Source: a virus. Taken from it: 21,006 nucleotides of DNA. The stretch spans positions 1-21,006 of the IMG/VR virus record IMGVR_UViG_3300045999_007227; one strand, written 5' to 3'. Positions 6,488 to 9,519 of this stretch are shown piece by piece; within the stretch, counting starts at the first letter, position 1, and the number at the start of each line of letters is the position of its first letter. Under the pieces are notes generated by a model. That model made no database searches. It had not been told where the DNA came from and saw nothing but the letters and a program-made list of their open reading frames with translations. A program made the position numbers and the translations under genes.

Positions 6488-8605
6488 ATGGTCATCGGAG
6501 CAACCACGATGACCAACAGCGACTTTCTGGCCGAGCTTCTCGGCGATCTCACATCGGGCACTCACGGCTGGGTATGTACTTTCCGCGCCGACCCGAGCAA
6601 AGCGCCTCCCGACGTCTGGTCAGGGCGGCCGTACCGAGGGCTTCCTGCCCAGGCTGGCCTCATCGACAAGGCCACACAAGACAACACCTACTTCTGCACC
6701 GGAGTCCTGCGCGCCACTGACGACGGCGAGATCGTCAGGCGCAAGGAGGCTTTCGTCAGGCTGGCCGTGCTGCTGCTGGACGACGTGCAGATGGACGACG
6801 TCAAGGGCTACAGCTACGCGATCCAGACCAGCCCGGGCAAGTTCCAGGTCGGCATCCTCTTGGACCCGGCCGATCCCGACACCGCCAACCAGGCCCTGAT
6901 CGACCGCGTGATGTCAGCGCTGGCCGCCCGGGGCAGATCGAATGACGCCTCAGGCAATGCGCTGGTCCGATACGGGCGCCTGCCCGTGGGCTGCAACACA
7001 AAACCCCGAGCGGCCGGCACCTGGCAGGTGCAGCTCGAGTCCTGGCAGCCCAAGGTGCGCTGGAGCTTGGCCGACGCCTGCGACGCAGTGGGCATTGACC
7101 TGGACGCGCTGCGCGCCACGGTCACACGTACAGCCGAGCGTTCATCAACGCATGCAGGCACGGGCACACATGCGGGCGAGTTCCTGCAGGGCCTGACCGG
7201 TGCACCGAGCGAGCGGGCCTATCACGACAGCCTCACGCGCATGGCAGCGTCATTGGTGGCTGGCGGGATGTTCCCTGGCGCTGCCGTCGAGCACCTCTAC
7301 AGCCTGATGGACGCGGTGCGCCCGACAGGGCCCGAGGAGGAGGTGCGCAGGTGGGAGGCCAGGCGGGCTGAGATTCCGCGGGCTGTGCGGTCAGCGGAGA
7401 AGTTCGCGCCGGATGAGCGCAAGCCGCCGGCCATCACGGTCAACCTAGCGCCGCCTGTTGAGCAACAGGAGACGAAGAGCGACATCCAGCCCATGGACTG
7501 GGGCGTGCTCGAGCATGAGACGCCCGAGCCTCCAGCCTGGCGCCTGGATGGCTGGCTGCCTGAGGGCACGGTCACGCTGCTGGCTGCCAATGGCGGTGTG
7601 GGCAAGTCCAACCTGAGCCTGCAGCTGGGCGTGGCGCTGGTGCATGGCCAGCAGTTCATGGACATCGCCACCAAGCCGAGCCGGGTGCTGGTGCTGTCAG
7701 GCGAGGACGAAGCGCGCACCGTCCACTTCCGCGTGGCCAACATCTGCCAGGACATGCAGGTGCCCATGGCCAGCCTGGCCAACCGCATGACGGTCTACGA
7801 CCTGACGCAGCAGGACTGCGTCCTCTGGCGCGATGGCCACCCCACCGAGCGCATGCAGTGGCTGGCTGACCAGGCCGTGAGGCTCAAGGCTGAGGTCATC
7901 GTCATCGACAACGCGTCTGACGTCTTCGCGGACAACGAGAACGACCGGACGGCCGTGCGCGGCTTCATGCGGGCGCTGAACCTGATCGCCCATGTGACGC
8001 GGGCCGCGGTGCTGCTGCTGGCGCACGTGGACAAGGCCTCAGTGCGCATGGGCGCGGGCCAGGACACCAACTCAACCTTCAGCGGATCCACAGCCTGGAA
8101 CAACTCAGCGCGCTCACGCTGGGCCATGGTCCGCGATGGCCAGACCGTGACCATCAAGCATGAGAAGTGCAACCTGGGTCCGCTGCAAGAAGAGATCCGC
8201 GTGGAGTTCGACTCAAGCTCCAAAACCTTTAAGCGCTTCGGCACCGTGCCTGGCGCCACAGCTGCGGCCGCGCTGATGAGGAACGGCCAACGCGTTGCGG
8301 TAATGCGACTGCTGCTCGAGGCTGAGCGGGCTGGCCAACGCGTCAGCCTGTCAGCCACCGCCAACAACAACGCTTGGCTCGCGCTGCACGGCGCTGAAGG
8401 CTTTCCACGCATCGACCGGCGTGACCTGTTCTCGATGCTGTTCGACATGCAGCGCGACGGGCTGGTGGAGGAAAGCGAGTACGTCAACGACCGCAAGAAG
8501 TACCGCTGCCTGGTGCTCACTGAGGTAGGCAAGTTACGGGCTGCGCAGGGCTCAGGCGCGCCGGCTATGTGGCGCGGCACGGGCTCAAGTCATGACGATG
8601 AGTGA
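6488..8605 (+). CDS. Primase/RepA-type helicase fusion replication protein
   Basis: A 705-residue protein with two enzymatic parts. The N-terminal third (about 1-200) resembles the RepB-like primase domain: VLLLDDVQMDD with D98/D99, and QTSPGKFQVGILLD from residue 113. After a linker, residues 340-560 form a RepA/AAA_25 hexameric-helicase domain. It has Walker A in AANGGVGKSN (about 365-374), VLVLSGED, Walker B in VIVIDNASD (about 470) and LLLLAHVDKAS near 511. The last 100 residues look like a winged helix (LFSMLFDMQRDGLVEESEY). It would prime and unwind DNA at the phage origin. The start could also be the ATG at 6509, which has GGAG eight bases upstream; the ATG at 6488 has GAGG at seven bases. 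It follows the Cro-like gene in one transcript. Exact primase residues are not certain. Confidence 0.8.
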   Translation: MVIGATTMTNSDFLAELLGDLTSGTHGWVCTFRADPSKAPPDVWSGRPYRGLPAQAGLIDKATQDNTYFCTGVLRATDDGEIVRRKEAFVRLAVLLLDDVQMDDVKGYSYAIQTSPGKFQVGILLDPADPDTANQALIDRVMSALAARGRSNDASGNALVRYGRLPVGCNTKPRAAGTWQVQLESWQPKVRWSLADACDAVGIDLDALRATVTRTAERSSTHAGTGTHAGEFLQGLTGAPSERAYHDSLTRMAASLVAGGMFPGAAVEHLYSLMDAVRPTGPEEEVRRWEARRAEIPRAVRSAEKFAPDERKPPAITVNLAPPVEQQETKSDIQPMDWGVLEHETPEPPAWRLDGWLPEGTVTLLAANGGVGKSNLSLQLGVALVHGQQFMDIATKPSRVLVLSGEDEARTVHFRVANICQDMQVPMASLANRMTVYDLTQQDCVLWRDGHPTERMQWLADQAVRLKAEVIVIDNASDVFADNENDRTAVRGFMRALNLIAHVTRAAVLLLAHVDKASVRMGAGQDTNSTFSGSTAWNNSARSRWAMVRDGQTVTIKHEKCNLGPLQEEIRVEFDSSSKTFKRFGTVPGATAAAALMRNGQRVAVMRLLLEAERAGQRVSLSATANNNAWLALHGAEGFPRIDRRDLFSMLFDMQRDGLVEESEYVNDRKKYRCLVLTEVGKLRAAQGSGAPAMWRGTGSSHDDE

Positions 8606-8633
8606 GGGGCTGCGCGTGCTGCGCGCGCGCTAT

Positions 8634-8784
8634 GCGGTCGCTATGCGGTCGCATGCGGTCGCAGATCGGGAAAAGCAAAGCCCCCGCCGCCCATGGCGGG
8701 GGGCTTTTCCCCTGCGTTGTGAGTGCGCGCGCTCGCTCTTAGTAGGGGTGTGGGGAGCACGCGCACGCAGTCGCAGGCGGTCGC
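8634..8784. repeat. GCGGTCGC direct repeats around a terminator
   Basis: GCGGTCGC occurs at 8634-8641, 8645-8652 and 8655-8662, then GCAGTCGC (one mismatch) at 8767-8774 and GCGGTCGC at 8777-8784. Spacings are 11, 10 and 10 bp, i.e. one helical turn, so the copies would face the same side of the DNA. The two clusters flank a terminator in the gap between the replication gene and the TerS-like gene. Candidates are a terminase (pac or cos) recognition site or iterons of a replication origin. The rest of the gap (8606-8827) is non-coding. Confidence 0.6.
8672..8710 (+). terminator. Strong rho-independent terminator, probably bidirectional
   Basis: A GC-rich hairpin: AAAGCCCCCGCC (8677-8688), loop GCCCAT, then GGCGGGGGGCTTTT (8695-8708), with one bulged G. 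A T tract follows on the plus strand, and AAAAGCAAA before the stem gives a T-rich tail on the minus strand, so it may work both ways. It would end early/replication transcription and separate it from the late genes, which then need a promoter between here and 8828. Confidence 0.75.
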
Positions 8785-8827
8785 AGAGCTGGGCTGGCGG
8801 GTGGGCTAAAAGTGTGAGAATCTCTCC

Positions 8828-9319
8828 ATGATGACGACGGAGCAATGTGAGCGGCCGGCGGCCGGAAAAATTCCGAGCGAGATCCGGCGGCAGCGGCCGG
8901 CGCCCAACGGGCAGGCCCTGCCAGTGGGCCGCGCCAAGGGCACGCCCAACCGCCTGACCGTCGCGCTGAAGGACGCGGTCGAGCGCGCAGCCCGCGACTG
9001 CCACCCGCAGGGCCTGGCCGGCTGGCTGGTGGACCGCGCCAACGGCAGCATCGGTGACCGGCAGATCTTCGCGGCCGTCGTGTCCAAGGTGATCCCGCTG
9101 CAGATCCAGCAGCACGTGCAGGGCGGCATCAGCATCAACCTCAACTGGTTGGGCGGCCGCCAGATTGGCACAGTCACGGCACAAACCGTGGAGCACAAGC
9201 CGCAAGTCGTTGATCTGATTGAGCAATCCGCCGACAAGTACCGGATTGTTGATCAGCACACAGCACCGGCACAGGCGGCGGCAGGGGTCGCAGGAGCGCC
9301 TGACAAGGGCGGCACGTAG
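8828..9319 (+). CDS. Putative terminase small subunit (TerS-like)
   Basis: A 163-residue protein. The recognisable part is residues 30-100: LPVGRAKGTPNRLTVALKDA, then WLVDRANGSIGDRQIFAAVV and SKVIPLQIQ. A K-G-x-P-N-R-L-T helix followed by a helical F-x-x-V-V-S-K-V-I-P segment is typical of small phage proteins placed directly upstream of large terminases. The C-terminus is Ala/Gly-rich and probably disordered. No catalytic motif is expected for TerS, which binds packaging sites and regulates TerL. The position fits: one small gene before TerL and right after the repeat cluster. ATGs at 8828 and 8831 are equivalent; the RBS is weak (GAGAA). The TerS label rests largely on position, so it may instead be an unrelated small DNA-binding protein. 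Confidence 0.55.
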   Translation: MMTTEQCERPAAGKIPSEIRRQRPAPNGQALPVGRAKGTPNRLTVALKDAVERAARDCHPQGLAGWLVDRANGSIGDRQIFAAVVSKVIPLQIQQHVQGGISINLNWLGGRQIGTVTAQTVEHKPQVVDLIEQSADKYRIVDQHTAPAQAAAGVAGAPDKGGT

Positions 9320-9519
9320 GGTGGACAGGGCGGGGCCGGGATCGTGCAGCCTGGGCCACGCCAGCCCCCGGCGCGGGGCATGCACGGGGGCGGCGCGGCC
9401 ACGGCGCCCGTGGGCCGACCCCCATCCCCCCGTCGAGCCGGTGGTGGGGGCCTCGCTGGAGCTGGGGCCCCCCCCCGAAATTTCTGAAAGTTGCACAGGC
9501 TCATTGAGCCATTCTCACC
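9320..9519. other. Non-coding gap between TerS-like and DUF3310 genes
   Basis: About 200 bp of very GC-rich sequence without a convincing ORF. It contains a perfect palindrome GGCTCA-t-TGAGCC (9498-9510) just before the DUF3310 start, and a run of C (9470-9477). No convincing promoter is visible. The DUF3310 gene that follows has no clear Shine-Dalgarno sequence. Confidence 0.4.

Follow-up and report, generated by a model that had tools for sequence, protein, structure and literature searches.

A probable phage replication origin with iterons that change in step with the C-terminal winged helix of the adjacent primase-helicase

The DNA analyzed here (the window) is a 21,006-bp virus fragment, IMG/VR virus record IMGVR_UViG_3300045999_007227, positions 1-21,006. 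Its element at ~8611-8784 is very probably the replication origin (oriV) of a phage, and its short repeats would serve as iterons, bound by the winged helix of a primase-helicase whose gene lies immediately upstream. Replication iterons had been one guess of the initial annotation of these repeats, and this guess is supported by the finding that, among relatives, the repeats change in step with the winged helix at the C-terminus of the primase-helicase. The features concerned, in window coordinates, are:

6488-8605, plus strand: primase-helicase-initiator gene (705 aa), with AAA_25 and RepB_primase profile matches and a match to 1g8y.
8237-8602, plus strand: C-terminal winged-helix domain (aa 584-705), proposed to bind the iterons; helix-helix-wing in an AlphaFold model of pLDDT 86.
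8489-8497, plus strand: wing tip D668-R669-K670; R669 is invariant, and D668 and K670 best predict repeat type.
8611-8663, plus strand: main iteron array, TGCGCGTGCT, CGCGCGCGCT, TGCGGTCGCT, TGCGGTCGCA, TGCGGTCGCA, in 10/11-bp steps, with place and layout kept in relatives.
8668-8711, no strand assigned: bulged hairpin, with a 9-bp outer stem, a 4-nt 5' bulge and a 9-bp inner stem.
8724-8736, plus strand: unit TGCGCGCGCTCGC, forming the left arm of the second element, from sequence inspection and relatives' alignments.
8738-8756, plus strand: conserved core CTTAGTAGGGGTGTGGGGA between opposed units, from alignments and enrichment of GGGTGTGGG.
8757-8784, plus strand: right cluster, GCACGCGC, GCAGTCGC, GCGGTCGC, from the repeat search and relatives.
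8828-9319, downstream of the repeat element: TerS-like gene, matched by PHROG 11043 only.

On its 5' side the 705-aa gene is accompanied by genes for a CI-like repressor (minus strand) and a small Cro-like protein, and on the 3' side of the repeat element lie genes for a TerS-like protein, a DUF3310 protein, TerL and a portal. The only match of the TerS-like protein is PHROG 11043, a family of unknown function; as it has no Pfam match and its AlphaFold model is poor (pLDDT 46), it is called a small terminase because of where it lies and the order of the genes. Among named phages and plasmids none is close to the TerS-like protein or to the helicase: the best phage matches of the primase-helicase reach ~26-33% identity, over its middle, and all relatives of the helicase found by a genome scan (in Comamonas, Rhodoferax and other genomes) are distant. 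An Rfam scan of the window found no known RNA element.

The five repeat copies first reported, one of them mismatched and all placed in two clusters, are borne out by exact coordinates and by TRF. GCGGTCGC occurs exactly at 8634-8641, 8645-8652, 8655-8662 and 8777-8784, and GCAGTCGC, with one mismatch, at 8767-8774; start-to-start spacings are 11, 10 and 10, and TRF describes the first cluster as a period-11/10 tandem of 3.3 copies with 96% matches. The helical phasing claimed for the copies holds inside each cluster (10/11 bp) but not between clusters, where the distance (112-122 bp) does not correspond to whole turns. The repeat word is itself ordinary for this GC-rich window (56 occurrences with at most one mismatch, 60 expected), so that the repeats exceed chance by clustering alone; three identical 8-mers chained in steps of 10/11 bp, as present in the window, arose in none of 300 trinucleotide-model shuffles. 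The copies form part of the larger element at ~8611-8784, and the array begins earlier than first noted, with two divergent units (TGCGCGTGC at 8611 and CGCGCGCGC at 8622). There are thus five TGCNNNNGCA-like unit starts (8611, 8622, 8633, 8644 and 8654), the first lying 5 nt past the primase-helicase stop codon (8605).

The structure between the clusters had been taken for a terminator. A strong hairpin is indeed present there (8668-8711; DNA MFE -19.9 kcal/mol, z -3.8; 5' bulge AAAG at 8677-8680), but a consensus terminator scan of the window calls it on the minus strand only, and its T-tract is missing from most relatives, in which the bulged stem is nonetheless retained. The same fold, bulged by 4 nt on the 5' side and not on the 3' side, recurs in many relatives, and the outer stems vary yet stay fully complementary (GGGAAAAGC/GCTTTTCCC, GGGGCAGGC/GCCTGCCCC, GGCTAAAGC/GCTTTAGCC, GGGGCATGC/GCATGCCCC). 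A conserved hairpin of the origin is a better reading of this structure than a terminator; because the T-tract is not kept, termination would be at most a secondary role. As to the second element, 24 of 57 relatives have GGGTGTGGG of the core at most 260 nt away from where the array starts, compared with 3 sites elsewhere in 515 kb. Four loci (L004, L006, L065 and L070) carry a short hairpin behind a TANNNT box instead of the G-rich core (TACAATCGCGTCCGGTGACGCGAT in L004), so the core comes in two alternative forms.

The 705-aa protein combines a RepB-primase-like N-terminal part, a RepA/AAA_25 hexameric helicase and a C-terminal winged helix. The AAA_25 match is strong (E=1e-34) and the helicase part also matches the profile of RSF1010 RepA (1g8y, E=2e-9); the RepB_primase match is weak (E=0.002) and falls below the curated cut-off. 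In the AlphaFold model of the C-terminal domain the wing strands comprise model residues 77-84 and 87-94, and D668-R669 (model residues 85-86) form the turn of the wing itself. The closest solved folds are MarR/PadR winged helices (Z 9-11), and Pfam PadR is matched weakly by some members. As the winged helix is a common fold, the model tells shape and not function; the origin-binding domain of P4 alpha is absent among the fold matches listed, which decides nothing.

Searches with TerS, TerL and the helicase yielded ~180 IMG/VR loci as relatives. The layout of array, hairpin, core and units is found behind the helicase gene in many of them, with units of either GCG or GCAC type, and many arrays start 1-30 nt past the helicase stop codon; in some relatives genes are inserted between helicase and array, which then lies up to 2.5 kb away. 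Arrays behind each helicase gene were sought as chains of TGCX....X'GCA in 9-12-bp steps, a unit model picked after the sequences had been viewed and in which X alone was left free. The search was by half-sites, as a detector requiring full palindromes misses half-site arrays. A clear array was one scoring at least 5, a score reached in 0 of 455 shuffles.

In all 57 relatives with a clear array, the residue preceding the invariant Arg669 predicts base X after TGC: Asn goes with A (27) or T (1), whereas His (11), Ser (10) and Asp (8) go with G (29 in total). When all alignment columns are ranked, the two best predictors are the residues that flank the wing Arg, both error-free across 28 representatives of <90% identity (these are D668 and K670 in the 705-aa numbering; the alignment numbers, 689 and 691, include 21 residues of the upstream reading frame). 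In a tree built from the residues before ~580, which leaves out the C-terminus of the protein, the residue and the repeat base switch 14 times, always together, and independent pairs on supported branches of this tree agree in 9 of 9 cases (p=0.004). After deduplication 94 loci have a relative of the gene, and in ~30 of them no array scores at least 5, these including fragments and loci with degenerate units. The Asn-type locus L099 has a G-type chain with a chance-level score of 4, and L081 is tied, also with a chance-level score.

A more drastic change of the protein is seen in six loci (L012, L027, L031, L033, L035 and L068), in which the N-terminal part is kept but the helicase half and the C-terminus are different ones. 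At the corresponding position these loci carry CGGGACA direct repeats at ~10-12 bp followed by opposed TGTCCCG copies, and in most of them an AT-containing dyad lies between the two sets (e.g., L012:2290-2434). The L012 proteins are informative in that its TerS is 96% and its Cro-like protein 99% identical to those of the window, yet its repeats are of the CGGGACA type, which argues that neither TerS nor Cro reads the repeats. The case that the C-terminal domain determines which repeats are used is thus a statistical one, made by covariation together with the domain swap.

The same comparisons bear on whether the repeats might be transcription operators at the early/late boundary, serving Cro/CI-like repressors or a primase-helicase that regulates itself, the hairpin then being a terminator. 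Such an arrangement would suit the terminator-like scan match at the hairpin and, in the window, the position of the right-hand units near the -35 to -65 region of the promoter-like TGTGAGAAT 5' of the TerS ATG. However, loci with G-, A- and CGGGACA-type arrays share a Cro-like protein of 98-100% identity, and CI (86-92% identical) does not track repeat type either; on this ground the Cro/CI form of the proposal was rejected; in addition, arrays are often distant from the TerS promoter, and the terminator is weakened by the unconserved T-tract. We consider it improbable that operators are the main explanation of the repeats, although transcription control by the initiator itself may be a second role. 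TGTGAGAAT (8810-8830), 6-8 nt 5' of the TerS ATG, looks like an extended -10 box, and relatives have similar boxes in this place; a -10 box so close to the ATG would make the TerS mRNA leaderless.

Co-inheritance of wing and array could also arise if the repeats had no function, being slipped tandem repeats in a recombination joint that hitch-hike with the adjacent C-terminal domain. The module is plainly exchanged between phages, as the 14 switches on the tree attest, and array copy number and units differ even between the window and the near-identical phage L029; part of the co-inheritance may indeed be linkage, with domain and array exchanged together. Against this, wing and array still match at a distance: all 25 arrays lying more than 400 nt (400-2500 nt) from the gene agree with the wing residue (Fisher p=5e-7, on rows that are not independent), and the stretches between contain open frames of 135-281 codons. 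The location of the two best-predicting columns at the wing tip, together with these matching distant arrays, makes linkage alone less likely, and the core, the bulged hairpin and the DnaA boxes described below are conserved or enriched beside the array. Functionless repeats are a very improbable account of the element.

Least credible is the other guess of the initial annotation, a pac or cosB-like packaging site bound by the downstream TerS-like protein: the repeats do lie just 5' of the TerS-like gene in the window and its nearest relatives, and lambda cosB, which adjoins its small-terminase gene, offers a parallel, but TerS does not track repeat type, being 94-96% identical across three repeat types (96% in L003 and 94% in L004, both with GCAC-type repeats) and only 81% identical in L014, which has the window's type, while in L021-L024 it is the helicase gene, not the TerS gene, that the array adjoins. 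A packaging site is better matched by a strongly conserved element that lies between the TerS-like gene and DUF3310/TerL. This element is C/G-rich and non-coding (GACCCCCATCCCCCCGTCGAGCCGG...GGGG...GGAGCTGGGGCCCCCC, at 9417-9477), and a strict pattern recovers it 5' of TerL in 55 loci. It is a good candidate for the packaging (cos/pac) site, better than the repeats.

The reading of the element as a replication origin draws indirect support from DnaA boxes in some relatives. Of 51 distinct arrays, 7 have the DnaA box TTATCCACA as an exact copy 116-158 nt away from their start, and TTATNCACA was found nowhere else in 64 loci (589 kb). The seven loci with TTATCCACA (L026, L051, L073, L093, L098, L106 and L158) are all from Asn-type phages and have it beside the second element. 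In the window itself neither TTATNCACA nor a DnaA box was found, and a search of the CGGGACA class for DnaA boxes returned none. GC skew, suggested earlier as a check for an origin, has no clear turn at the repeats and is uninformative.

We infer that the winged helix physically binds the units and that the element is active as an origin, in the following manner. The C-terminal winged helix would bind each ~10-bp unit (TGCNNNNGCA), with the wing tip reading the base after TGC, which in the window would be G read by Asp668-Arg669-Lys670. Lying on one face of the helix, the five phased units would bring the initiator together and load its RepA-like helicase ring; melting, or priming by the RepB-like primase, would be served by the bulged hairpin and by the G-rich core with its opposed flanking units. 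A more specific version is put forward tentatively, as possible but somewhat less likely to be right than wrong in its entirety: the residue adjacent to Arg would set the iteron base (Asn, A/T; Ser, Asp or His, G); wing and iterons would have been exchanged repeatedly as a replication-identity module, possibly allowing escape from origin-directed nucleases, satellites or competing phages; and the fused RepB-type primase would use the conserved bulged hairpin for priming, in the manner of an ssi site.

With respect to known systems, the window origin is best read as similar in layout to the origins of satellite P4 and the staphylococcal SaPIs: helically spaced short repeats lie beside the initiator gene, and the initiator has a helicase and a terminal predicted DNA-binding domain. 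P4 alpha (ori1/crr) likewise unites primase, helicase and winged-helix origin-binding domain in one polypeptide; the sequence and layout of the ori1/crr repeats presumably differ from those of the window. The P4 origin-binding domain is, as cited in PMC4234260, a solved winged helix (Yeo 2002). In SaPI Rep the C-terminal domain recognizes an iteron origin directly 3' of its own gene, and SaPI Rep and SCCmec Cch2 resemble the window protein as helicases with a C-terminal DNA-binding domain and a short-repeat origin directly behind the gene (PMC7581432). They differ in that the window helicase is RepA/AAA_25-like, not DUF927 or D5/Primase_Cterm, and in that the window units, known here from sequence alone, are ~10-bp quasi-palindromes around a bulged hairpin.

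The IncQ plasmid RSF1010 replicates with three Rep proteins (PMC4538821) and shares with the window a RepA-like helicase, a weakly matching RepB primase, iterons and a hairpin. Its RepA helicase, RepB' primase and RepC initiator (with ssiA/ssiB) are separate, whereas the phage has one protein, in which the three Rep proteins seem to correspond to fused domains. In pRN1, the primase-helicase gene of ORF904 is likewise followed directly by a stem-loop, which is required for replication; unlike in the window, iterons are not reported there (PMC4234260). Covariation of initiator and iteron also has precedents. In the PLE satellites of Vibrio phage ICP1 (RepA, iterons, Odn), origin-binding domain and origin are exchanged as a module and iteron changes escape the origin-directed nuclease (PMC8263062); their initiator belongs to another family, and the window group differs in presenting 14 residue/repeat-base switches within one phage group. 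In the geminivirus Rep iteron-related domain, variation in initiator residues correlates with iteron variation (PMC10653810), in that case in a rolling-circle Rep of other fold and host range.

A probable replication origin has thus been located from sequence alone in environmental phages that have no close relative among named phages. The ~14 natural switches of protein-DNA specificity come with a proposed one-residue rule that is unusually clean and testable, and there is a suggestion that origin recognition is swapped as a module in the manner of phage immunity, as in the PLE satellites (PMC8263062). As iteron type is predictable from the wing tip, the rule may aid origin finding in uncultured phage genomes.
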